From: Chloroflexota bacterium
GTDB lineage: Bacteria; Chloroflexota; Anaerolineae; Promineifilales; Promineifilaceae
Assembly (NCBI GenBank): GCA_029559155.1
Contig: JAKQCM010000340.1
Span: 1 to 32,482 of the forward strand
Reading direction: 5' to 3'
Length of the DNA: 32,482 nucleotides
Shown here: positions 17,719 to 30,795 of the stretch, one piece after another
Layout of the letters: each line of letters opens with the position of its first letter
Position numbering within the stretch: the stretch's first letter is position 1
Notes under the pieces: model-generated
Seen by the model: the letters and a program-made list of their open reading frames with translations, nothing else
Database searches by the model: none
What the model was told of the DNA's origin: nothing
Made by a program: the position numbers and the translations under genes

Positions 17719-19422
17719 TTAACCCAAACCGCCTTGCAGCCAAATTGTTTGGTACGGCCGTATCGTCACCGGCTCCGAAGCTGAAAACGGCCGTTGTCCC
17801 AACAAATCCGTAAAATGTCCAGGCGGCAGGGTGACAACCACCGGCTCGCGGCTGACATTGTGCAGGCACAGCGCCTGCGCCGCGCCGTCCGGGGCCGTGC
17901 GCCGCACGACAAACAGCGCCGGATGCCAAAACAAAATTTCCTGCTCGCCGTTGGGATGGAACGCCGCGCTGCGGCTGCGGGCCTGCAGCAGCCCGCGATA
18001 CCCGGCGAACACCTGCTGGCGCAGCGAACCGGCGCGGCCTAATTCGGCCGTCAGGTGGGCGGCGTCCAGCTTTTGCCGGTTGATGGTCCGGGCGCGGCCG
18101 GTCGTTTGCACGCCATCCGGCCAGCCGCGCGAGCCGAACAGGCTGTGAAAGTAAATGCCCGGCACGCCGCGCAGGGCCAACATGATGGCTTGCGCCGTTA
18201 AAAAGCGGCGGGCAATTAGATTGATGGATTCCTCGGGCACATCCGGATCGGCGAGAGCGTCGAGGTAGTTGATGTTTAGTTCATAGGCTGTCTGGCTGCC
18301 GTCGGGGTTGGCGCGATAGGACACCTGCCCGCCGAGGCGCAGCACGCGGGCCGCCATGTCGGAAACGGCCGTTTCCGACAGCAGCCCGCGCGCCGGAGTC
18401 AGCCCAATGCCATCATGCGAAGCAAGAAAGTTGAAAAAGGTCGTCCGGTCGGAGGGCAAGGTCAGGGTTTGCGCCCAATTCGAGAGAATGTCGGCACGGC
18501 CGTTGTGGAAAGCGTGCAGGGTCAGGGGCGGCAGCGAAAAGTTATACACCAGCTGGGCTTCGTTACGGCCGTTGCCAAAATAGGCGATATTGTCCTGATG
18601 GGGCACATTCGTCTCGGTGATCAGCGCCACCTGCGGCGCAACCAGGTCCAAAATGCTGCGCCATAGTTGAATGATGCGATGCGTTTGCGGCAAGTGCAGG
18701 CAGCTCGTGCCGACCTCCTTCCACATAAAGGCGATGGCATCCAGACGGATCAGGCGCGCGCCTTGCGCCACATAAAACAGCAGCAGCTCGCTGATTTTTA
18801 GCAGCACGTCCGGATTGGCAAAATTCAAGTCAATCTGGTCGGCGCTGAACGTGGTCCAGACGCGGCGCAGTCCGGCGGCGGTTTGCACATCGGTCAGCAG
18901 CGGCAGGGCGCGCGGGCGAAAAACGGCCGTCACATCCGCTCCCGGCTCCGGCACGACAAAATAATCGGTAAAGGGCGGCTCGCCGCGCAAAAACCCCTGG
19001 AACCAATCACTCTGCGCCGAAATGTGGTTAATCACGGCGTCAAACATCAGGCGAAAATCGTGGCCGATTTCGGCCACATCGGCCCAGGTTCCCAGCGCCG
19101 GGTCCACCGCCCAATAATCAATCACCGAAAAGCCATCGTCCGAGGAGTAGGGATAAAAGGGCAGCAGGTGGATGGTGTTGACCACGCCGGACACCTGCCG
19201 GCGCAAAAACGAGGCCAGGGTGTGCAACGGCCGTTCCCCCGCCGCCTGCACCATATCCCCATACGTAATCAGAACCGCGTCCCGTTCATCAAAAAAATCG
19301 GTCGCGCCGCCGGTTAACAGGAGTTGATACCGCTCTATCAGTTCGTCCAGGCGCGGCAAAATCTCCTTCGCCGCCTCTGGCCCGTACAAAAAGTTTAGAT
19401 GCTCTATGATGGTCAAATTCAT
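17719..19422 (-). CDS. GH13_18 phosphorylase, probably glucosylglycerate phosphorylase
   Basis: 567 residues. GH13_18 enzymes split an alpha-glucoside with phosphate to glucose-1-phosphate plus the acceptor. Catalytic residues: nucleophile D228 ('LIRLDAIAF'), acid/base E270 ('ALITETNVPH') and D337 ('LASHDGIG'). The region after the nucleophile, 'MWKEVGTSCLHLPQTH' (233-248), resembles glucosylglycerate phosphorylases (E. coli YcjM type) more than true sucrose phosphorylases; this is from memory of the family. The start codon overlaps the glycerate-kinase stop in an ATGA, and this pairing supports 2-O-alpha-glucosylglycerate as substrate: its products would be glucose-1-phosphate and glycerate. 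Eight octamers lie within the gene or at its edges. Sucrose or glucosylglycerol remain alternatives. It has no signal peptide and is cytoplasmic. Confidence 0.85.
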   Translation of the reverse strand: MNLTIIEHLNFLYGPEAAKEILPRLDELIERYQLLLTGGATDFFDERDAVLITYGDMVQAAGERPLHTLASFLRRQVSGVVNTIHLLPFYPYSSDDGFSVIDYWAVDPALGTWADVAEIGHDFRLMFDAVINHISAQSDWFQGFLRGEPPFTDYFVVPEPGADVTAVFRPRALPLLTDVQTAAGLRRVWTTFSADQIDLNFANPDVLLKISELLLFYVAQGARLIRLDAIAFMWKEVGTSCLHLPQTHRIIQLWRSILDLVAPQVALITETNVPHQDNIAYFGNGRNEAQLVYNFSLPPLTLHAFHNGRADILSNWAQTLTLPSDRTTFFNFLASHDGIGLTPARGLLSETAVSDMAARVLRLGGQVSYRANPDGSQTAYELNINYLDALADPDVPEESINLIARRFLTAQAIMLALRGVPGIYFHSLFGSRGWPDGVQTTGRARTINRQKLDAAHLTAELGRAGSLRQQVFAGYRGLLQARSRSAAFHPNGEQEILFWHPALFVVRRTAPDGAAQALCLHNVSREPVVVTLPPGHFTDLLGQRPFSASEPVTIRPYQTIWLQGGLG

Positions 19423-20714
19423 GAGTCTGTCGCATAGGTTAGCGCCACCAACAAATCGTTGACGTTGGTGCCGGTGGGCGCAGACAGATGCCCCGCGCCC
19501 AGCCGCTGGAAAAAGTGATAGCTGTCGTTGTTGGCCAGATAAGCGGCCGGGTCCAGGCCCGATTGGGCCGCCTGCACGGCCGTTTCCCCCGAAACCACCG
19601 CCCCGGCCACCGGCGTCGGCCCATCCTCGCCATCGGTGGCGAAGCTGGCCACCACGCAGCCGGGCGCGCCGGACAGAGCCACAGCGGCGGCCAGCGCCGC
19701 TTCTTGATTGCGCCCGCCCAAACCAGCGCCTGTGACCGTGACCGTGCTTTCGCCGCCCCAGATCAGGCAGCGGCCGGGCGGCGTTTGGCGCGCCACGTCG
19801 GCGGCCATGCGGCCAATGTCCCGCGCCTCTCCGGTGAGCGTGGTAGAGACGACGGCCGTTTGGAACCCAAGCTGTTCGGCCCGCCGCGCCGCCGCCTCAG
19901 CCGCCAGACTCACATCGCCGATGATGTGGTTGCGGATAAAGTTGCCGGCGGCTGGTTGATGGGGAATGGCGGCGGCGAGGTGACGGGTAACGGCCGTAGC
20001 CGTGGCCTCATCCAGCCGCGCCCACACCTGGTAGGCATCCAAAATCGCCTGCGCTCGCTGCGGGTCCGGCGGTGTAGGCACCGTGGGGCCGCTGCCGATA
20101 TGCGCCAGCCGGTTGCCGATCACATCACTGAGAATAAGACTGACGCAGGCCGCCGGAGCCGCCCACTGCGCCAATCCGCCTCCTTTCACCGTGTCGAACT
20201 GCTGGCGGATGGTGTTGATGTCGTTGATGGCGCAGCCGCTGCGCAGCAGAGCGTCGTTGAGCGCCTGCCACTGGGCCAGCGGCAGCACAGGCCGCGTTAG
20301 CAGCGCCGACGCGCCGCCGGAGACCAGACACAAAACCAGGTCATCGGGCTGCGTTTCGGCCAACAGTTCGTAGACGGCCTGGGTGGCCTGGAGGCTGAGC
20401 TGGCTGGGCAGCGGGTGGCTGCCCGGAAAATATCGCAGGGGCGGCGGCAAATCGGGCACGGCCGTTGCTTTGCTGATGACAACACCGGCGGTCAGTGTAT
20501 CGCCAAGAATGCTGGCCGCGGCCGCAGCCATGGCCACCGCCGCTTTGCCCACACTCACAACAAAAATCCGCGCCGGGGCATACGACTCTCCGGCAACCGT
20601 GACCGCACCGGGCGATGCGGCAATTTGGCTGCTGACGCGCGCGGCGGGGTTGGCGGCCGTCACCGCAGCCAGCGCCAGGGCGGCGACATCTTGTTCAAAC
20701 GTAGCAAAAGACAT
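19419..20714 (-). CDS. Glycerate 2-kinase (GCK/MOFRL family)
   Basis: 431 residues. It phosphorylates D-glycerate with ATP, in this family to 2-phosphoglycerate, feeding lower glycolysis. The N-terminal domain carries K57 ('SVGKAAVAM') and 'CLVSGGASALLTRP' (129-142). The C-terminal MOFRL domain holds 'GAGLGGRNQEAALAAA' (329-344) and 'FATDGEDGPTPVAGAVV' (358-374). The ATG at 20714 has AGGAAG at proper distance; the open frame runs 87 bp further but through intergenic repeat. It lies 135 bp after the GH38 stop and overlaps the phosphorylase start by 4 bp. Hydroxypyruvate reductase annotations are common for this family but the MOFRL motifs indicate a kinase. Confidence 0.92.
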   Translation of the reverse strand: MSFATFEQDVAALALAAVTAANPAARVSSQIAASPGAVTVAGESYAPARIFVVSVGKAAVAMAAAAASILGDTLTAGVVISKATAVPDLPPPLRYFPGSHPLPSQLSLQATQAVYELLAETQPDDLVLCLVSGGASALLTRPVLPLAQWQALNDALLRSGCAINDINTIRQQFDTVKGGGLAQWAAPAACVSLILSDVIGNRLAHIGSGPTVPTPPDPQRAQAILDAYQVWARLDEATATAVTRHLAAAIPHQPAAGNFIRNHIIGDVSLAAEAAARRAEQLGFQTAVVSTTLTGEARDIGRMAADVARQTPPGRCLIWGGESTVTVTGAGLGGRNQEAALAAAVALSGAPGCVVASFATDGEDGPTPVAGAVVSGETAVQAAQSGLDPAAYLANNDSYHFFQRLGAGHLSAPTGTNVNDLLVALTYATDS

Positions 20715-20768
20715 GCTGAGCTTCCTGGTAAGGCTAATTCTGCGGTAATTGTTCCGGTTTCTTTGGCA

Positions 20769-20828
20769 AGACCCCAAGGGTTTTATACCCAAATAATCCA
20801 AATTCTCACGAGCAAACCCTTGGGGTCT
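20769..20828. repeat. 15-bp perfect inverted repeat between GH38 and kinase genes
   Basis: AGACCCCAAGGGTTT (20769-20783) and AAACCCTTGGGGTCT (20814-20828) are perfect complements separated by 30 nt. In the operon transcript this makes a stable hairpin in the 135-bp gap between the GH38 stop and the kinase start, where it could tune mRNA decay or downstream translation. Confidence 0.8.
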
Positions 20829-20849: not shown

Positions 20850-23561
20850 TTAAAGCACGGTCACAATGTAGTCGTAGATGCGCCGCTTGATGCGCAGGCG
20901 GTTGAGCGCCGCGCCAATGGCGGCGATTTCGGCATCTGGTTCATACAGGTAAGCGTAACGCAGCCCGCCCTGTTGCGCCAGTTTGCGCGAATTAAGCAGA
21001 TGAGCAAGCTGGTACTCCAGCTTTTCGCGCTCCAGAATGTAGCAGCGATGCTGCTGGCGCAGGCGGTCGGTTCCGTGGCTTTGAGTAACGGCCGTTTCCG
21101 CCGCCGCCAACTGCTCCGTCAGCTCGTCAATTTGCGCCTGGAGACGAGACAACACGGCCGTATCCGGCAGGCTGGCGCTTTCACCCACGCGCCACGCAGG
21201 ACGATTGCGCCAGGTAACCGGCTGGCCGCCGCCAGCGACGACAGGCGGCAGGGTATGCGGCAGCTGCAAGGTGACGATATGTTTGGGGGCCACGGCCATG
21301 CGCCAACCCACCGGGCTGCCCCAGACATCGGTTTGCCGGTAACTGTGCGCGAGCGGCTGAACGGCCGTTGTCGGATTGTACAGGCGGGCCAGGATACGGC
21401 CGTCGCGGACAGAAAGGCTGCTTAACGGCAGCGATTCTTGCAGCAGCGGCCAGGCGCGCCGGTTGCCCGCGCTCTGCTTGCGCGCGATGAGCGGCGGCGT
21501 TTGATAGGCGGCGTTTAGCTGCTGCAAGGCCATGCTGTCCGGGGTAAACGCGCCGACGGCGACGGCGACTTCGTGGCGCACAGGGCGCTCGCAGCGGGCG
21601 TCGGGCACGTAAAAGAAGGGGCCGGCGTCGCCTATTCTGTCGGGCAAATCGGCTTTGGTGAGCCATTCCACCGACCGGCGCACAATCAGAGACAGATCGC
21701 CGGAGCTTGTGGCGGCGTAGGCGTGCAGACCTTTGGCGAGAACGGCCGTGCTGCGCTCACCATTGGTCACGGCAATAAAATCGTGAAACGGGAAATCGGT
21801 CACGCAGCCCAATTCGCGCTGCCCGATCAGGACCTTTTGCAAGTCGGCGGGAAGCTGCCGGGGCAGTAAATCGTCGTCTACCGGCGCGCGCGACACCACA
21901 TCGAAAGGCATTCCCGCCGCGATGTCGCCGGGCAGGCCAGTGGCAAAGGCCATCTCCACCCGCAAATCCGTGCCGCGAGAGTCCAGATCAACCTGCCAGC
22001 GTAACAGTGGGGAATGGTCGAAAATCAGTCGAATGTCAGCTTTGACATTTGCCGATTCGTTTTGCCAGGCAGCCGAGAAGGTGATTTCGCAGTGCTGGGC
22101 GGATTTTTGGGCGATGATGGGAGGCGCAGACGGCCGTAATTCGCCCAACAATTCCCCTTTTTGCGCGGAGTATGTATCGCCGGCTTCGGCCCAAACCAGC
22201 AGCCGACCCATGCTTTGCCCGTCGAGCAGCAGCTGCCCATCAGGCGAGAGAACGGCCGTGTAATGCGCGTTTTGCCAGACAAAGGGCGTCGTGACGGCTT
22301 CGTTTACCAGAGTAATGGGCAGTCGTTTTTGCACCGGCCAGACGCCGATGCCCTCGGTTTCGGCCCAAAGCAATTCGCCATTCACGGCCTGCCAAACGGC
22401 CGTGGCAAACGGCTGCGTGCTGATGGCGTAATCGCCCGGGGCGAAATCTTGCAAGATCGCCGCCAGCGACGATTGGGCATCGTCGGCGATGGCGTCGAAC
22501 GCCAGCCGGTAGCTGTATTCCATCTTTTCATGCACCTGATCGATGCTGACGCCGCAAATGCAGTCGTGGACTGCGTTTTGCAGCAGCAGGCGCTCCCAAC
22601 GCTCAATGTCGGCGGCGGGAAAGGCGCGCCCGCGCAGCCGGGCCATTGCGGCCAGCGGCTCGGCTACCCGAAACAACATCCGCTGGCAATCGTGGGCCAT
22701 CACCTTCAGATAGGTGCGTGTGGAATACACGCCGGGGAACGTGGCCCCAAATTTGCCGGAGTTGAGTTCGCCACTGATGACCGGCATGGGCACATGTTGC
22801 TGCGCGATGTGGCGGACAAAGGAGGTGGGCGTGGCCTGCTGAAGCGTGATGTCTGGGTTGATTGGACCGGCTTGCCGGAAGAACGTCAGGGGATCTTCGG
22901 GGTTGTCTTCCAGGTCGTAGCCGTCGAAGAGGGGGATGTCGGGTGTGGGGTAGAACGGCCGTAACTTATCTACCTCTCCTTCTAACCGCTGCACCGCTAT
23001 CTCCGGCGCATGGGTCACGCCATACAGGTTGCGATAGCCGCCAAACAAATCCACGGCCAACAATTTGCTGCCGTCTGCGCCCTGCCACTGAAAATAGGGC
23101 GCCAACTGCGGCACGCCGCGCCAGACGAAGACGGCATCCAGACCAAACATGCGGTGAAGCTGTGGTGATTGGCTGATGTGACCGAAGGTGTCCACCAGCC
23201 AGCCCGTTTCCATTGCTGCGCCAAGACGCTGGAGGTCGAGACGGCCGTTCATCAAATTACGAACCAACAACTCCCCACTGCTGATCTGCCAGTCCGGCTG
23301 GCAGTAATAAGGGCCAATCAACAGTTGGTTCTGTTTAACCAACGCCGCCACCCGTGCCGCATATTCCGGCGCCACAGCCAACAAATCCTCAATTACCAGC
23401 GTCTGCCCATCCAGCAAATAACAAAAATCAGGGTTTTGCGCTACCAGTTTCTCCAGCTTATCAATCAGGCCAGGAATCCAGCGGCTGGTATACACCGACG
23501 TTAAAAACCACTCGCGGTCCCAATGAGTATGATTGATGACATGAGCAAGGGTCTCAGGCAT
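20850..23561 (-). CDS. GH38 alpha-mannosidase (MngB-like)
   Basis: 903 residues. GH38 enzymes are zinc-dependent retaining alpha-mannosidases. Zinc ligands H13 and D15 sit in 'NHTHWDREW' (10-18), and the nucleophile and ligand D124 in 'GWLVDTFGHISQSPQL'. A later ligand His is likely in 'NAVHDCICG'. The length and the simple layout match bacterial MngB-type members, one of which hydrolyses phosphomannosylglycerate in E. coli. The start at 23561 is preceded by AAAGG and lies inside the end of the ABC ATPase gene (8-bp overlap), implying coupling. Its neighbours (glycerate kinase, phosphorylase) suggest mannosylglycerate or mannosyl-glucosylglycerate as substrate. Mannan oligosaccharides are an alternative. 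It has no signal peptide. Confidence 0.92.
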   Translation of the reverse strand: MPETLAHVINHTHWDREWFLTSVYTSRWIPGLIDKLEKLVAQNPDFCYLLDGQTLVIEDLLAVAPEYAARVAALVKQNQLLIGPYYCQPDWQISSGELLVRNLMNGRLDLQRLGAAMETGWLVDTFGHISQSPQLHRMFGLDAVFVWRGVPQLAPYFQWQGADGSKLLAVDLFGGYRNLYGVTHAPEIAVQRLEGEVDKLRPFYPTPDIPLFDGYDLEDNPEDPLTFFRQAGPINPDITLQQATPTSFVRHIAQQHVPMPVISGELNSGKFGATFPGVYSTRTYLKVMAHDCQRMLFRVAEPLAAMARLRGRAFPAADIERWERLLLQNAVHDCICGVSIDQVHEKMEYSYRLAFDAIADDAQSSLAAILQDFAPGDYAISTQPFATAVWQAVNGELLWAETEGIGVWPVQKRLPITLVNEAVTTPFVWQNAHYTAVLSPDGQLLLDGQSMGRLLVWAEAGDTYSAQKGELLGELRPSAPPIIAQKSAQHCEITFSAAWQNESANVKADIRLIFDHSPLLRWQVDLDSRGTDLRVEMAFATGLPGDIAAGMPFDVVSRAPVDDDLLPRQLPADLQKVLIGQRELGCVTDFPFHDFIAVTNGERSTAVLAKGLHAYAATSSGDLSLIVRRSVEWLTKADLPDRIGDAGPFFYVPDARCERPVRHEVAVAVGAFTPDSMALQQLNAAYQTPPLIARKQSAGNRRAWPLLQESLPLSSLSVRDGRILARLYNPTTAVQPLAHSYRQTDVWGSPVGWRMAVAPKHIVTLQLPHTLPPVVAGGGQPVTWRNRPAWRVGESASLPDTAVLSRLQAQIDELTEQLAAAETAVTQSHGTDRLRQQHRCYILEREKLEYQLAHLLNSRKLAQQGGLRYAYLYEPDAEIAAIGAALNRLRIKRRIYDYIVTVL

Positions 23562-24645
23562 ATAAAACCTTTCCGCTTTCACGGTCTACCCACCGTATCT
23601 TATCGGCCGGAAAACGCAGCCAAATATCTTCATCCGGCGCAGTGCGAAATGTTGGGTGTGTGGCTACTTTCACCGTATCCTGACCAATCTTCACCGTGAG
23701 CAAATTCTGCGAACCTAACGGTTCTACCACCAACACACGCACCTTCAAGGCCTCGTCCTGCGGCGCATTAAATGCCTCCATATTTTCCGCGCGAATACCT
23801 ATCGCCACCTGTCGGCCATCATACGGCTTAAGCATCGGCAGCATCGCGCTGCTCGGCTGCAACGAAAACTCGCCAATCTGCACAGACAGATCCCCATTCT
23901 CGCGCTGCACCTGCCCCACCATAAAATTCATCGGCGGATTGCCAATAAAACCACCCACAAACTGGTTAGACGGCAAATCATACACCTTTGTCGGTTCATC
24001 AATCTGCTGGATAACGCCATCCTTCATAACGGCAATCCGGTCGCCCATGCTCAAGGCTTCAATTTGGTCATGGGTCACATAAATCGTTGTGGCGTTTAGC
24101 TCGTGGAGCAGGCGTTTCAGTTCGGCGCGCATCTCCAGCCGCAGCAGCGCATCCAGATTACTAAGCGGCTCGTCCATCAACAACACCTCAGCGTCCATGG
24201 CGATGGCTCTGGCCACGGCCACGCGCTGCCGCTGCCCACCGCTCATCTTGCTCGGAAAACGATCCAACATTTTCTCTATATGCATCATTTCCGCCGCCCG
24301 ATTGACCCGCCTTTTAATTTCCTGGTCCTCAGCTTTGCGCATTTTCAGGCCAAAAGCGATGTTATCGTAAACCTTCATGTGCGGAAAAATGGCGTAACTT
24401 TGGAAAACCATTGAGATATTGCGGTCGCGGGGCGGCAAATAGGTCACGTCACGGCCGCCAATGCTGATGCGCCCTTCGTCGGCCATGCCTAAGCCGGCGA
24501 CCGCGCGCAGGAGCGTGGTCTTGCCGCAGCCGCTTGGCCCCAACAGCACCACAAATTCTCGTTCGGCAATCGTCAGGTTTGCTTTATCCACAGCGACAAA
24601 ATCACCAAAACGTTTGACTACATTTTCAATCTTGATCTCAGCCAT
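23554..24645 (-). CDS. ABC transporter ATPase, MsmK/UgpC/MalK type
   Basis: 363 residues, the energising subunit of a CUT1 carbohydrate importer. Walker A GPSGCGKTT (36-44), Q-loop Q82, signature SGGQRQ (135-140), Walker B VLLMDEP (154-160, E159 catalytic) and switch H192 are all intact. The C-terminal part (about 240-363) is a TOBE/OB regulatory domain as in MalK ('VAIGIRAENMEAF', 'LVVEPLGSQNLLTVKIG'). AAGAGG precedes the ATG. It lies 41 bp after the second permease and overlaps the GH38 gene by 8 bp, so the ATPase is dedicated to this importer rather than shared. It carries no octamer. Confidence 0.96.
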   Translation of the reverse strand: MAEIKIENVVKRFGDFVAVDKANLTIAEREFVVLLGPSGCGKTTLLRAVAGLGMADEGRISIGGRDVTYLPPRDRNISMVFQSYAIFPHMKVYDNIAFGLKMRKAEDQEIKRRVNRAAEMMHIEKMLDRFPSKMSGGQRQRVAVARAIAMDAEVLLMDEPLSNLDALLRLEMRAELKRLLHELNATTIYVTHDQIEALSMGDRIAVMKDGVIQQIDEPTKVYDLPSNQFVGGFIGNPPMNFMVGQVQRENGDLSVQIGEFSLQPSSAMLPMLKPYDGRQVAIGIRAENMEAFNAPQDEALKVRVLVVEPLGSQNLLTVKIGQDTVKVATHPTFRTAPDEDIWLRFPADKIRWVDRESGKVLYA

Positions 24646-24686: not shown

Positions 24687-25571
24687 TTACTTGGTGATCT
24701 GACCCCACATATTGAACAAATAGCGGCGAATGATAAAGATGAAGATCATCGAAGGGATCAGCATAAAAAACGCGCCGGCAAACTGGTAAGCCTGGGATGA
24801 TTGTCCCAGGGTATTAAAGACTTGCGCCGGTAACGTGCGGTGCTGGATAGTTAACACACTGGCCGCAAATACCTCATTCCACGACATGACAAAGGTAAAG
24901 ATGGCCGACGCCGCAATACCCGGCAGCACCAGTGGAAAAACCACCTGGCGGAACGCCTGAAAGGGCGTGCAGCCAAACACTTTGGCCGCTTCTTCCAGTT
25001 CATAAGGCACGCTGGCGAAAACGCTGCCGATAATCAGGATGGTTGTCGGCAGGGTTAAGGCAGTGTGCATCAACGCCAAACTGTAGATGCTGTCGAAAAT
25101 GTTGAAATTGATGAAAACCACGACCAGCGGAATCGCCAACACGACGATGGGAAAGGCGCGGACCATTAAAATTGCCAACCGGTAAGTATCACGGCCGCGA
25201 AAAATGTAGCGAGAGGTGGCGTAACCGGCCGGGGCGGCAATCAAAGTAGAAAGTACCAGGGTAATCAAGGCGACCAGGACACTATTGATGATCCCGGGCA
25301 CAATGCCTTCCGAAGCCAGGAAAAATTTCAGGGTGGTCAGAGAAAATTCAATGAACGGCAGCACGCCTTTGGGGTAGGCGCGCACATTTTCCGGCGTGGT
25401 CAGAGCCATGGAGGCAATGAACCAGATGGGAATGAGAATCCACAGAACAATGAGGATGGCGACGAGGTAAGTGAAGCCGCGCCGTATTTTTTGCTGCCGC
25501 AGCATTTTGCGATGGATCGCCCGCACTTCCGGGGACACCTGAACAGGATTATTTTCAGTTAAGGCGCTCAT
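24687..25571 (-). CDS. ABC sugar permease, MalG-like (CUT1)
   Basis: 294 residues with six predicted membrane helices, the first at about 33-56. The cytoplasmic EAA loop 'YELEEAAKVFGCTPFQAFRQVVFPLVLPGI' docks to the ATPase; it has the usual EAA...G spacing. The start overlaps the stop of the first permease in ATGA and has GGAGGAGG upstream. It works as a heterodimer with the 25568-26962 product to import the bound sugar-glycerate or oligosaccharide. Confidence 0.95.
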   Translation of the reverse strand: MSALTENNPVQVSPEVRAIHRKMLRQQKIRRGFTYLVAILIVLWILIPIWFIASMALTTPENVRAYPKGVLPFIEFSLTTLKFFLASEGIVPGIINSVLVALITLVLSTLIAAPAGYATSRYIFRGRDTYRLAILMVRAFPIVVLAIPLVVVFINFNIFDSIYSLALMHTALTLPTTILIIGSVFASVPYELEEAAKVFGCTPFQAFRQVVFPLVLPGIAASAIFTFVMSWNEVFAASVLTIQHRTLPAQVFNTLGQSSQAYQFAGAFFMLIPSMIFIFIIRRYLFNMWGQITK

Positions 25572-26962
25572 CCTACTGCCTCCTCCTGGGTACGAATGGT
25601 GCGCAGGTAGAAAATGGCGCTGACCATGGATATGAGCAAAATTAATCCGGCATACGAGGCAGCCACATTGAGATTACGAAAATCGTAGTATTGGCGGTAG
25701 GTTTCGTTTGCCAGCACCGTGACCACGTCGCCGCCACTCAGGGCGACGACGACGGCGAAGACTTGCAGGGCGAGGATGGTGCGTAAAATTAAGGCCACCT
25801 GCAAACTGGGCCGCAGGAGGGGCAAGATGATGTACCGCAGCCGTTGCCAGAGGCCGGCGCCGAACAGTTCGGCCGCTTCCAACACTTCGGTGGAGATGGC
25901 TTGCAGGCCGGAAACGACAATGACCATCACAATGGATGTGGCGCGCCACACTTCAGCCAGGACAATGGCGATGATGATCCAATAACGGGTTTCGGCCGAA
26001 AGATAGGTGACCGGCGCGTCGATGAGTCCCAGGCCTTGCAAGATGGTGTTGAGATAGCCGTTGGTGGTGAAAATGGAAAACCAGACGATGCCGATAGCCA
26101 GGTCGGAGGCGGCGAGGGGAATGGCAAATATATAGAGGAAAAGGCTGCTCAGTTTCAGATTAGCCTGGATAACCAGGGCCATGATAATGGCCAGGACAAA
26201 CTGAATGGGGATGATGATGACGATGAGTAACAAGGTGGTGCGCACGGCCGGCCAGAAGAAGCGGTCGTTGACCATGCGGGAGAGGTATTTGGAGGTGAGT
26301 TCGCCGGTGTTGCCGCGATCGACACGGCCGTTTTCCCCCTCACCAAACACCTGAATATACCGCGACTGCGCCCAGCCTTCGATCATCTCCCCGTTGGCCG
26401 TTTCACCGGCCACCCGGTACCACACTTCCAGAACCACTTGCTCGGAAATGTCTACCTCTGCTCGCGCTTCGAGTTGACCGATGATGGGGCTGTCTTCATT
26501 GGCGTCGGCGTAAACGGCCGTTAACGGGTCCGACTCCGCCCCTAATTTCGACCTCACCGTGCCCAGAACCGGTGTGCCATCCACGGCCGTCTCGCGAATA
26601 CGAATCCGGCTCTCCGCCACCCATCCGGCCACCGCCTGACCATCCGGGCCAACCCCGCTGATCTTAAACCAGGTGTCCGTCAGCAGATTTTGCTCCGCCA
26701 AATCTTCCGGCGGCACAAAATTGCCCTGCCTATCAGAAATTGTCACCGACGCGCCTTGCGGCAATAAGCCCACCAACGCGCTGTCCTGGGATGCCTCGGC
26801 GTTCAACGACAGCGACGCTTCATCATCCCACACCGCCAGCGCTAACCCACGTACCATCGGCCAGGCAAAAAACAAAACCAGATAGATCAACGATGGCAGG
26901 ATAAGCAGATACGGGGCCCAAACAAACTTCTTCCGATTCACAGTCTGTTGTGCTGCGCTCAT
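25568..26962 (-). CDS. ABC sugar permease, MalF-like, with inserted SH3b-like pair
   Basis: 464 residues, much longer than normal (about 300). TM1 (about 15-37) is followed by an insertion of about 190 residues before TM2 (about 241). The insertion contains two similar segments (about 51-123 and 146-206). Each has a 'G.L..GA.V.I' beta start, a 'WF/WY+(I/V)' middle and a closing 'GWVAESRIRI' or 'GWAQSRYIQV', the pattern of bacterial SH3 domains. It should lie outside the membrane where the binding protein docks. The EAA loop 'STEVLEAAELFGAGLWQRLRYIILPLL' is normal. The ATG at 26962 is preferred over an upstream GTG because AAGGGG lies between them. It is cotranscribed with the solute-binding protein and coupled to the next permease. 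Confidence 0.9.
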   Translation of the reverse strand: MSAAQQTVNRKKFVWAPYLLILPSLIYLVLFFAWPMVRGLALAVWDDEASLSLNAEASQDSALVGLLPQGASVTISDRQGNFVPPEDLAEQNLLTDTWFKISGVGPDGQAVAGWVAESRIRIRETAVDGTPVLGTVRSKLGAESDPLTAVYADANEDSPIIGQLEARAEVDISEQVVLEVWYRVAGETANGEMIEGWAQSRYIQVFGEGENGRVDRGNTGELTSKYLSRMVNDRFFWPAVRTTLLLIVIIIPIQFVLAIIMALVIQANLKLSSLFLYIFAIPLAASDLAIGIVWFSIFTTNGYLNTILQGLGLIDAPVTYLSAETRYWIIIAIVLAEVWRATSIVMVIVVSGLQAISTEVLEAAELFGAGLWQRLRYIILPLLRPSLQVALILRTILALQVFAVVVALSGGDVVTVLANETYRQYYDFRNLNVAASYAGLILLISMVSAIFYLRTIRTQEEAVG

Positions 26963-27003
26963 GGCAAACCCCTTCACAAATCTCTTGTACTGCGGATAAA
27001 CAT

Positions 27004-27041: not shown

Positions 27042-29678
27042 CTAATCGTTCACCTGGCAAGGCCCGGCGCTGGCCGGATCAGGCGCCCAGCAAGGCGCGC
27101 CTGTTTCGTCCATCAGGGCTTGCAAGTTTGCGGCTTCCTCATCCAAAACAGTCTGGATGTCTTCACCGTTCAAAACGACACGATCGAACGCATTGCGGAA
27201 GATCTGGTTAATCTCCCCGCCGCGCTCGCCCAAACCAACCGGCAGCAGAGCCGGTAAGGCGTCGGCGGCGTTGGCCTGCGCCGAAACCGCGCCCGCTTCG
27301 ATGCCGATACCTACCGGCAAGTTACTGGTATCCACACCGCCAACCACCGGGAAAAAGCCCAGTTCGTTCAGGACCAATGCCTGGACATACGGCCGTGTCA
27401 GATACTCTATCACCGCTGCGCCTGCTGCCGGGTCTGGCGCGTCAGCCGGAATGCCCAGCCCAACGACCACCGGCATAAAGCCGCGCCCGGCCGGACCGGC
27501 CGGGGCCGGAAACGCCACAAACTGCTCAGGCTGCGTGTTAAACGCGTCCAACAAACGCGCCGTATGGTCAAACGCCACCCAAACCTCGCCCGCCAACAGC
27601 GGCTCCTGCATAAACTCATAATTGATCGATTCCGGATGAATCGTCGGCCACAGGCTGTCACGCGCCCAGGCCAGCATCGCCGCCGCGTCGGCGCTCTTGA
27701 AGTTCGTCACCATGCCGCCGGTAAACGAAGGCCACATGTACCCTTCCAGGAAGCGATGGAACAAACCCGCCTGCGGCAAACCGCACTTTGGCTCGCCCGT
27801 TTCATCCAACAAGTTTTGGCACCACTGGCCGAATTGTTCCCAGGTCAGCGCATTGACATCCGCGCCGTCGGGCAGGTAAGCCAGCGCATCCACGTTAGCG
27901 GCCATAATGTAAGTCGCCTGCATCCAGGGAACGTAATTCAAAAAGTCATCGGTTCCCAACAGCCCGGTTTCCAAGAAGGCAGGAGCCAAATCCCGATCGG
28001 CCATCAGGTCATCGGCCACGTCAATAACGTTCATCAGCGCATTTTCGCGGGCCAGAGGTGGGAATGTGCCGTGCAGCGCCCCAATCACGTCGATTTCGCC
28101 TTTGCCCGACTGGGCGCCGGCCAAAACCAGATCGATCAGTGGGCCTTCTTCGGAGCCGGTGAAATCAAAGCCGCCCTGTTGCAAAATGGCGCGGAACTTC
28201 TCCTGCTCTTCAATCGGCACAAACTGCGTGGAGAAGAATACGGCCGTGCTTGTTCCCGCCGGAGCCATAGCCGCTTCCGACACTTCGCCCAAAGGCGCTA
28301 CCTGGCACGGGCCATCACTCGGCGCATCAGGCGCCCAGCAGGGCGCGCCAGTTTCATTCATCAACGCTTGCAGATTGCCGCCTTCTTCGGCCAGAACAGC
28401 CTGGACATCTTCACCATTCAGAACCACACGGTCGAAGGCATTGCGGTAAATCTGGTTGATTTCGCCGCCGCGATCGCCCAAGCCAACCGGCAGCAGGGCC
28501 GGTAAGGCGTCGGGGGAATTGGCCTGCGCGGCAACTGCGCCAGCCTCAATATCCACGCCAGCCGGTAAATCCGACGTGTCCACGCCATCGACCACCGGGA
28601 AGAAACCCAAATCGCGCAAGACCGCGCCTTGTACGTCTGGCCGAGTCAGGAATTCAATGACCGCTGCGCCAGCTTCAGGATCGGGCGCATCGGCCGGAAT
28701 GCCTAAACCAACCACAACCGGCATAAAGCCGCGTCCGGCCGGGCCGGCGGGCGCGGGGAAAGCAATAAATTGGTCTGGCTGGGCGTTAAAGGCGTCCAAT
28801 AACCGGGCCGTATGGTCAAACGCTACCCAAACTTCGCCGGCCATCAAAGGTTCTTGCATGAATTCATAGTTGATGGATTCGGGGTGGATGGTGGGCCACA
28901 AGGTATCGCGCGCCCACACCAGCATATCCATGGCCGCTGTACTCTGGAAATTGGAGACCATGCCGCCGGTAAAGGAGGGCCACATGTACCCTTCCAGGAA
29001 GCGGTGGAACAGACCGGCTTGCGGCAAGCCGCACTTCGGTTCGCCGGTTTCGCTCAGGATGTTTTGGCACCATTGGCCAAATTGTTCCCAGGTGAGCGCG
29101 TTGATGTCTGCGCCGTCTGGCAAGTAAGGCAAGGCCTCTGTATTGGCGGCCATGATGTAGGTGGCCTGCATCCAGGGGATGTAATAAAGGAAGTCTTCGG
29201 TGCCGAGCAGGCCGGTTTTGAGGTAAGCCGGGGCAAGGGTGCGGTCGGCGGATAAATCGTCGGCGATGTCGATCATGTTCATCAGGGCGTTTTCACGCGC
29301 CAGGGGTGGAAAAGAGCCGTGCAGCGCGCCAATCACGTCGATTTCGCCTTTGCCAGACTGCGCGCCGGCGAGAACCAGATCGAGCATGGGGCCTTCTTCG
29401 GAGCCGGTAACGTCAAAGCCGCCTTCCTGAAGAATGGCGCGGAATTTCTCCTGCTCTTCTACCGGCACAAACTGAGTCGAAAAGAAGACAGCGCTGGTGG
29501 AAGTTGGGCTGGTCGTATCGGCGGGGGGTTCTACGGCCGTTTCTGCTGCCACAACCGCTTCTGTGGCCGCTGGCGGCACGGCCGTTGCCGGTTCCTGTGT
29601 GGTTGTGCTGCCGCCGCAAGCAGCCAGCAGCATAACCATGACAATCAGGAACGCAAAAACTTTTAGAGATTTGGACAT
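27042..29678 (-). CDS. Lipoprotein with two tandem solute-binding domains
   Basis: 878 residues, about twice the normal size. The N-terminus is a lipoprotein signal with lipobox LLAAC (C21), then a Pro/Thr/Ala-rich linker (about 22-60). Two complete extracellular solute-binding domains follow, residues 62-460 and 478-876, aligned without a gap at an offset of 416. I count about 60 differences in 399 positions (about 85% identity). Each domain repeats two cysteine pairs (204/216 and 447/458; 620/632 and 863/874). A short linker 'APLGEVSEAAMAPAG' joins them. It should be anchored outside the membrane and deliver sugar to the two permeases. AGGAGGAG precedes the ATG. It is the first structural gene after the LacI regulator (100 bp) and is followed by a strong hairpin. 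Family SBP_bac_1-like; the ligand is inferred only from the operon. Confidence 0.93.
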   Translation of the reverse strand: MSKSLKVFAFLIVMVMLLAACGGSTTTQEPATAVPPAATEAVVAAETAVEPPADTTSPTSTSAVFFSTQFVPVEEQEKFRAILQEGGFDVTGSEEGPMLDLVLAGAQSGKGEIDVIGALHGSFPPLARENALMNMIDIADDLSADRTLAPAYLKTGLLGTEDFLYYIPWMQATYIMAANTEALPYLPDGADINALTWEQFGQWCQNILSETGEPKCGLPQAGLFHRFLEGYMWPSFTGGMVSNFQSTAAMDMLVWARDTLWPTIHPESINYEFMQEPLMAGEVWVAFDHTARLLDAFNAQPDQFIAFPAPAGPAGRGFMPVVVGLGIPADAPDPEAGAAVIEFLTRPDVQGAVLRDLGFFPVVDGVDTSDLPAGVDIEAGAVAAQANSPDALPALLPVGLGDRGGEINQIYRNAFDRVVLNGEDVQAVLAEEGGNLQALMNETGAPCWAPDAPSDGPCQVAPLGEVSEAAMAPAGTSTAVFFSTQFVPIEEQEKFRAILQQGGFDFTGSEEGPLIDLVLAGAQSGKGEIDVIGALHGTFPPLARENALMNVIDVADDLMADRDLAPAFLETGLLGTDDFLNYVPWMQATYIMAANVDALAYLPDGADVNALTWEQFGQWCQNLLDETGEPKCGLPQAGLFHRFLEGYMWPSFTGGMVTNFKSADAAAMLAWARDSLWPTIHPESINYEFMQEPLLAGEVWVAFDHTARLLDAFNTQPEQFVAFPAPAGPAGRGFMPVVVGLGIPADAPDPAAGAAVIEYLTRPYVQALVLNELGFFPVVGGVDTSNLPVGIGIEAGAVSAQANAADALPALLPVGLGERGGEINQIFRNAFDRVVLNGEDIQTVLDEEAANLQALMDETGAPCWAPDPASAGPCQVND
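27051..28247. repeat. Direct repeat, second binding domain
   Basis: Encodes residues 478-876 of the lipoprotein. Its partner lies exactly 1248 bp away (28299-29495) in the same frame with no indel at protein level. Many codon differences are silent, so the duplication is not brand new. Confidence 0.9.
28299..29495. repeat. Direct repeat, first binding domain
   Basis: Encodes residues 62-460 of the lipoprotein. The repeat excludes the signal peptide and the Thr/Pro linker, so the duplication joined the end of one mature domain to the start of the next through a 17-residue linker. Confidence 0.9.
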
Positions 29679-29778: not shown

Positions 29779-30795
29779 TTAGCGGGGTGCGCCTGTTGAT
29801 TGTCGGACGATGATCGAAGGGGTCAAAATGACCTGATTTTGTTCGATTGGTTGGCCATTGATGATTTTGGTCAGCATTTGGGCGACCATACCACCCATTT
29901 GTTGGGCGGGTTGATGGACGGTGGTCAGGGGCGGGTTGGCGTACTCGGCAAGCAAAATGTCATCGAAACCGGTAATGCTGACATCCTGACCCACAACCAG
30001 CCCGCGTTCTTGCACAGCGCTGATCGCGCCCAACGCCAGGAGGTCGTTGCAGGCGACAATCGCAGTCGGCGGCGTCGGTCTATCCAGTAATTGCAAGGCG
30101 CTCTGGCGGCCGGACCGTTGACGGAAATTGGATTCGACGATGAGGTCGGGAGTGTAGGGCAGGTTGTGGGCTTGCAGCCCGTCGATAAACCCCTGGACGC
30201 GGTGAAAAGATTTAGTGAGGTCAGTCGGTTCGGCGATGCAGGCCAGGCGGGTGTGCCCCAGGGCAATAAGATGATCGACAATCTGCCGGACGCCGGAACG
30301 GCCGTCTTCATCCACCAGATGAAAATCATTGCCTTGCTCTGTCCGGCCAAAAGCCACAAAAGGCACGCCATGCTTTTGCAGCAGGTTGATCCGGTTATCT
30401 TCGCGGTGAGTACGCACCAGGATAAACCCATCAAACTGGCGGCTGCGAATATGCTTCAGATAAATGTCTTCTTCATCGCCGGCGTCGGCCGTGGAAATGT
30501 TCAGGTTATAGCCGCGTTCACCTAGGTACTCCACCACTCCGGAGAGGAACTCGCTAAAAAACGGATCGGAAAAACGCAGGGTGTTGGCTGAAGGGAGAAT
30601 AAGGGCGATGCTGTCGGTGCGCTGTTTTTGCAGATTGCGGGCGGTGATATTTGGCTCGTACCCCATTTCTTCCGCGACTCGCTGAACTTCCCGGCGCGTT
30701 TGCGGGCTGATGTCGTCAAAGTCGGCCAGAGCGCGGGACACGGTCGGAATCGATTTCCCGACCCGTTCGGCGATGTCCTTGAGCGTTACCGGCAT
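29779..30795 (-). CDS. LacI-family transcriptional regulator
   Basis: 338 residues. The N-terminal HTH 'TLKDIAERVGKSIPTVSRAL' (4-23) and hinge helix ('ITARNLQKQRT', 50-60) bind a palindromic operator. The remainder is a periplasmic-binding-protein-like sugar sensor ('SIALILPS', 'DGFILVRTH', 'AIVACNDLLALGAISAVQERG', 'ITGFDDILLAEYANPPLTTV'). GAGGAG precedes the ATG. It is the first gene of the sugar operon on the same strand, and its own promoter carries two matching LacI-type operators, so it very likely represses itself and the operon until the imported sugar or a breakdown product is present. An odd unused AAAGGAGG lies just after its stop. Confidence 0.95.
   Translation of the reverse strand: MPVTLKDIAERVGKSIPTVSRALADFDDISPQTRREVQRVAEEMGYEPNITARNLQKQRTDSIALILPSANTLRFSDPFFSEFLSGVVEYLGERGYNLNISTADAGDEEDIYLKHIRSRQFDGFILVRTHREDNRINLLQKHGVPFVAFGRTEQGNDFHLVDEDGRSGVRQIVDHLIALGHTRLACIAEPTDLTKSFHRVQGFIDGLQAHNLPYTPDLIVESNFRQRSGRQSALQLLDRPTPPTAIVACNDLLALGAISAVQERGLVVGQDVSITGFDDILLAEYANPPLTTVHQPAQQMGGMVAQMLTKIINGQPIEQNQVILTPSIIVRQSTGAPR

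Follow-up and report, generated by a model that had tools for sequence, protein, structure and literature searches.

A lipoprotein with two tandem solute-binding domains in a Chloroflexota ABC importer, and the recurrence of this architecture in unrelated binding proteins of one Anaerolineae family

Importers with more than one binding domain have been studied mainly on GlnPQ and OpuA, two systems in which the number, the position and the specificity of the domains are hard to separate. The GlnPQ permease carries tandem binding domains as a fusion, and these are unlike each other in specificity, in affinity and in how far they lie from the permease (PMC8025302). In OpuA, one domain is fused to each permease chain, so that each importer has two equivalent binding domains, and the cargo is a compatible solute (PMC11065425). 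A literature search on tandem or fused solute-binding lipoproteins, which covered few subscription papers, returned permease-fused cases only; no paper in it described similar domains in two or three copies on a lipoprotein separate from the permease, or such tandem proteins recurring throughout a lineage.

Here, we describe a locus in a window of 32,482 nucleotides from a Chloroflexota bacterium (contig JAKQCM010000340.1; the window is the whole stretch of DNA that was analysed). The locus resembles GlnPQ in providing two tandem binding domains in one chain for one ABC importer, but the chain is a separate lipoprotein, the permeases are encoded by separate genes and the domains are 85% identical. 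It resembles OpuA in offering more than one apparently equivalent binding domain per importer, again probably for a compatible solute, but the OpuA domains are fused to the permease chains and form no lipoprotein tandem. With ordinary SBP_bac_1 sugar-binding lipoproteins (UgpB/MalE fold) it shares the fold of each domain and an ordinary sugar-importer operon, whereas in the window type each anchor holds two or three complete domains. The features of the protein are:

27042..29678, minus strand: tandem solute-binding lipoprotein of 878 aa (open reading frame with two SBP_bac_1 matches and an 85% internal repeat)
29616..29678, minus strand: hydrophobic signal peptide ending in the lipobox LLAAC (Cys21), read from the translation
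28299..29495, minus strand: binding domain 1, residues 62-460 (self-alignment; AlphaFold2 model)
28248..28298, minus strand: linker of 17 residues, APLGEVSEAAMAPAGTS, without a second lipobox (from the sequence)
27051..28247, minus strand: binding domain 2, residues 478-876 (self-alignment)

About 40 low-complexity residues lie between Cys21 and domain 1, and two residues after domain 2 close the 878-aa chain. As the linker lacks a second lipobox, domain 2 would be left without an anchor if the chain were cut. When the protein was slid along its own sequence one residue at a time, a single shift stood out, that of 416 residues, with 344 identities (53 at the next best offset). Residues 62-460 and 478-876 align without a gap and are identical at 339 of 399 positions (85.0% at the amino acid level and 77.8% at the nucleotide level), a recomputed value that reproduces the gap-free identity of about 85% reported in the first-pass annotation. 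The SBP_bac_1 match (Pfam) of the 878-aa protein covers two stretches and scores 122 bits against a curated cut-off of 26, which each domain also exceeds on its own. The AlphaFold2 model of domain 1 (residues 63-460; mean pLDDT 93.6) has the two-lobed binding-protein fold, and its best matches among solved structures, all sharing less than 20% sequence identity with the domain, are UgpB (Foldseek E 1.3e-17, TM about 0.66) and other sugar-binding proteins. Open reading frame, coordinates and self-alignment agree on the architecture, which is established: one lipoprotein-like ABC-importer binding protein with two intact full-length domains, as had been claimed from the first reading of the sequence.

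At the codon level, the two domains are separated by 155 silent and 60 residue-changing differences, with third positions differing in 182 of the 399 codons (46%). Nei-Gojobori estimates for this pair are a dS of about 1.5, a dN of 0.093 and a dN/dS of 0.06. A genome of the same genus, G031, carries a two-domain gene too, 98% identical to that of the window, and its domains differ from their window counterparts by a dS of 0.22-0.26 each.

The differences between the domains were set against conservation in 60 single-domain relatives, whose alignment has 107 columns with a conservation of 95% or more. Only 1 of the 59 aligned interdomain differences falls on these 107 columns, where 15.9 are expected (P 4e-8), and entropy among the single-domain relatives is 1.67 at differing positions versus 0.93 at matching ones, establishing that the domains share constraint. 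The residue present at a differing position also occurs in single-domain relatives in 53 of 59 cases for domain 1 and in 54 of 59 for domain 2. The first-pass annotation had noted that substitutions cluster and had taken this as a possible mark of changed specificity. The clusters are real, with 8 differences in residues 242-260 and 12 in residues 351-390, but changed specificity is unsupported, since the differences shun positions conserved in single-domain relatives and the clusters lie where those relatives vary as well (mean entropy 1.37 and 1.24, respectively, versus 1.04 overall). This pattern of constraint favours two copies with one and the same function, although their affinities may still differ. 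The sequence comparison is best read as a doubling of one binder, which would provide each anchor with more capture sites.

The SBP_bac_1 gene is encoded together with two permeases and an ATPase in the window operon. The surrounding features are:

29779..30795, minus strand: LacI-family regulator (Pfam LacI, Peripla_BP_3), kept upstream of the binding-protein gene in most Chloroflexota loci
25568..26977, minus strand: permease 1, with an extra SH3-containing segment (Pfam BPD_transp_1, SH3_3)
26351..26518, minus strand: SH3_3 match (Pfam) at permease 1 residues 154-209, in a region missing from outgroup loci L117-L123
24687..25571, minus strand: permease 2 (Pfam BPD_transp_1)
23554..24645, minus strand: UgpC/MalK-type ATPase (Pfam ABC_tran, OB_MalK; NCBIfam UgpC closest, 399 bits, below the cut-off of 432)
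20850..23582, minus strand: GH38 enzyme resembling mannosylglycerate hydrolase (Pfam GH38; NCBIfam PRK09819)
19419..20801, minus strand: glycerate 2-kinase (DUF4147/MOFRL; phmmer to PDB 2b8n, E 3e-76)
17719..19422, minus strand: GH13_18 phosphorylase, probably a glucosylglycerate phosphorylase (TETN motif and loop-A Glu)
18607..18618, minus strand: TETN motif of the GH13_18 phosphorylase, residues 269-272 (from the sequence)

Several specificities occur within GH13_18. Glucosylglycerate phosphorylases carry (T/S)ETN at strand 5 and a Glu replacing Gln in loop A, often adjoin a glycerate kinase, and include the GH13_18 enzyme YcjM of E. coli, for which this activity is described (PMC7178133). 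TETN is present in every operon GH13_18 relative examined, and the loop-A stretch, with the loop placed by eye, reads YELN or YEMN in all full-length aligned GH13_18 relatives. The GH38 enzyme scores 243 bits against PRK09819, far below the cut-off of 1138, and does not qualify as an MngB equivalog. On a Roseomonas plasmid, a single-domain protein with 51% identity to the binding domain is followed by permeases, an ATPase and a hydrolase-like enzyme; the best NCBIfam match of this enzyme is glucosylglycerate hydrolase (348 bits, below the cut-off of 550), and it also has a strong Pfam MGH1-like_GH match and matches PDB 2z07 at E 1e-127. Based on the phosphorylase signature, the glycerate kinase and the Roseomonas relative near a glucosylglycerate-hydrolase-like enzyme, that is, on gene neighbours in several phyla, we infer that the cargo of the window importer is probably glucosyl- and/or mannosylglycerate. 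The E. coli ycj operon is alike in holding a GH13_18 glucosylglycerate phosphorylase, as predicted in the window; it also holds the genes of an ABC importer, whose binding protein has a single domain.

The extra segment of permease 1 comprises about 160 residues with the SH3_3 match, and outgroup permeases are without it. A tie between the SH3-containing permease and the domain duplication was rejected, as single-domain relatives also carry the segment.

Taken as a whole, the following account of the importer seems to us reasonably likely. The 878-aa protein would serve an ABC importer for 2-O-glycosylglycerates as its lipid-anchored binding component and would have two functionally equivalent domains joined by a flexible linker, and either domain could capture the solute. 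The domains would load in parallel and dock by turns on the permease pair, and one anchor and one export event would thereby place two binding sites near the translocator, a capacity benefit that we infer along with the docking in turn. In type I importers such as MalFGK2-MalE, a docked binding protein spans the two permease subunits; with one docking at a time, two domains cannot deliver simultaneously, and a tandem serving both permease faces is unlikely. To our knowledge, Chloroflexota are without a classical outer membrane; if so, binding proteins need anchors, and a second domain doubles the sites without a further anchor or export event. The binding domain would have been multiplied in frame, presumably by recombination, again and again in unrelated importers of this bacterial family, the tandem expanding to three domains and contracting to one, with the copies kept alike by shared constraint and by repeated duplication or exchange.

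A search for the architecture in related genomes, which the first-pass annotation had called for, found it in G031 and in further contigs, with one to three domains. The window-type importer is present in about 75 contigs, mostly of Anaerolineae and Acidimicrobiia, and forms a mosaic of copy numbers. Two complete domains are found in the window and in L048, L049, L053, L056, L058, L059, L062 and L067, three in L061, L063 and L065 (1288-1305 aa), and at least two in L051, L052/L116 and L055, where contig ends intervene; the Acidimicrobiia and most remaining loci have one, a few contigs being cut and undecided. Since one-, two- and three-domain versions occur in otherwise conserved operons, this importer would allow the contribution of copy number to be measured in isolation.

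On a tree of 92 domains, a minimum of six changes between single and multiple domains is required, with or without L057. The domains cluster mainly by lineage rather than by position. An AU test in which first domains were constrained together and second domains together, 11 versus 11, rejected (p 5e-38) the idea that domains 1 and 2 have descended independently from one ancient duplication. Over shorter spans, position does hold: window domain 1 clusters with domain 1 of G013 (97/89), and the first-domain and second-domain groups of L058, L059, L062 and L067 are separate (84/96 each). The single domain of L050 clusters with the second domain of L049 (100/99), which suggests a contraction from two domains to one. 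As read from the tree, the history appears to be one of repeated gain, loss or exchange rather than one old event. Shared codon use may account in part for silent sites diverging less between the copies of one protein than between genera.

A scan of the window gene for gene-conversion tracts turned up none beyond chance (the longest stretch of identity is 26 nt, versus 23.4 in shuffles; P 0.29). Recent gene conversion was rejected for this gene, identical tracts being no longer than chance, and the absence of a tract together with the clustering of first domains in the close group indicates that exchange has not been recent there. In L059 (6775-9198), the two domains are separated by a dS of 0.27, unusually low for a dN of 0.08 (dN/dS 0.30), making this gene a candidate for recent exchange between copies. 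Near-identical single-domain operons in L095, L097 and L098, labelled Synergistaceae and Phycisphaerales, are placed among Chloroflexota tandem first domains, which would reflect genome contamination or horizontal transfer.

Tandem binding proteins also recur outside the window-type importer. An SBP_bac_1 search of the window genome returned two further two-domain frames: C497 (L182, 4208-6826), of 873 aa, with copies 91% identical and two permeases beside it, and C132 (L183, 900-3350), of 817 aa, with copies 33% identical and domains that have position-specific orthologues in other genera. Long frames from related genomes were tested by comparing their halves, and groups were formed at 40% identity; several long ORFs first suspected as tandems failed the half-versus-half comparison. 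The tandem binding proteins fall into 19 groups unrelated to one another; internal identity is 77-93% in 16 of them and 29-33% in the other 3. Their types include SBP_bac_1 and Peripla_BP_6 (branched-chain amino-acid type). Permeases or ABC ATPases, plus other genes, neighbour the three tandem groups checked. In L208 and L213, the copies are 89-93% identical within the protein and 62% identical between the two genera for any copy pairing, a pattern that points to independent duplication or homogenisation. Two groups followed across 52 family genomes have doubles and singles mixed, even inside one genus (single in G001, double in G002-G006). Between genera, copy number toggles, and copies cluster by lineage more than by position. 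A separate 960-aa ORF (L215, 1762-4641) joins SBP_bac_1/8, pullulanase X25 and Peripla_BP_6, with two binding folds in one chain.

Recurrence on many unrelated capture proteins suggests a general, apparently undescribed way to raise nutrient capture. The wider proposal, that this Anaerolineae family has multiplied binding domains in frame, to two or three similar copies on one lipid anchor, in no fewer than 16 unrelated importers with two classes of fold, and that more sites per anchor pay, is put forward tentatively, as one that could fail about as easily as hold. If true, binding domains would undergo repeated gain, loss and homogenisation, the payoff would come from the envelope and habitat of these bacteria, and the diverged class and the chimera of two binding folds would represent this process at a later stage. 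If the recurrence holds, a single lineage would have arrived repeatedly at one architectural change in unrelated transport systems, which would be unusual.

A different division of labour, in which the domains bind the same ligand type with different affinity or docking and so widen the concentration or cargo range, has a precedent in GlnPQ (PMC8025302) and is consistent with the position-specific domain groups seen within short spans and with the diverged tandems (29-33%) that have position-specific orthologues in the same genomes (L183/L211/L214). We consider it rather unlikely for the window protein, because the window differences avoid conserved positions and the differing residues are mostly known from single-domain relatives. 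Somewhat less likely still is a neutral origin, by which a duplication bias of the lineage makes tolerated in-frame fusions that are later lost, the second domain bringing no benefit. The mixing of doubles and singles between and within genera, and the many unrelated binding proteins affected, would fit such a process, but the low dN/dS at a dS of about 1.5 and the conserved positions, intact in nearly all copies, argue that selection has long maintained both copies. An assembly artefact, in which separate genes or alleles were joined during metagenome assembly, is scarcely credible and, for the window gene, is rejected on third-position divergence and on separate genomes with the same architecture: all the genomes are metagenome-assembled, and a 100-N scaffold gap inside a domain of L057 shows that such repeats trouble assemblers, but a dS of about 1.5 makes the copies neither two alleles nor a mis-joined repeat, the window and the 17 tandem loci checked contain no N, and a 950-aa tandem of another group is present in G032, a three-contig genome. 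Two equivalent copies of one binder remain the preferred reading of the window protein. In L042 (10711-12134)/L057, the 100-N gap inside the binding domain is followed by a second C-terminal fragment, probably a collapsed tandem, and tandem copy numbers may be underestimated in draft genomes.

The frequency of tandems was counted as two matches in one open frame, repeat identity being checked only for some. In the window genome and six relatives, 22 of about 141 SBP_bac_1 frames had two matches; as these genomes were partly chosen for tandems already seen, the count was repeated on seven unselected genomes, taken by rule as the most complete of unused genera, in order. This set gave 12 of 126 frames with two matches (0, 0, 0, 1, 2, 2 and 7 per genome). 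As controls, none of 68 SBP_bac_1 frames in eight Acidimicrobiia genomes was tandem, and no tandem occurred among the best 150 of 261 SBP_bac_1 matches in ten genomes of other Anaerolineae families. Fisher P values for the unselected set were 0.009 versus Acidimicrobiia and 6e-5 versus the best 150 of 261 matches of the other Anaerolineae, and are optimistic, since frames within a genome are non-independent. The tandem trait is enriched in the window's Anaerolineae family and is not exclusive to it, window-type tandems being present outside the family in G106, G220 and G269.
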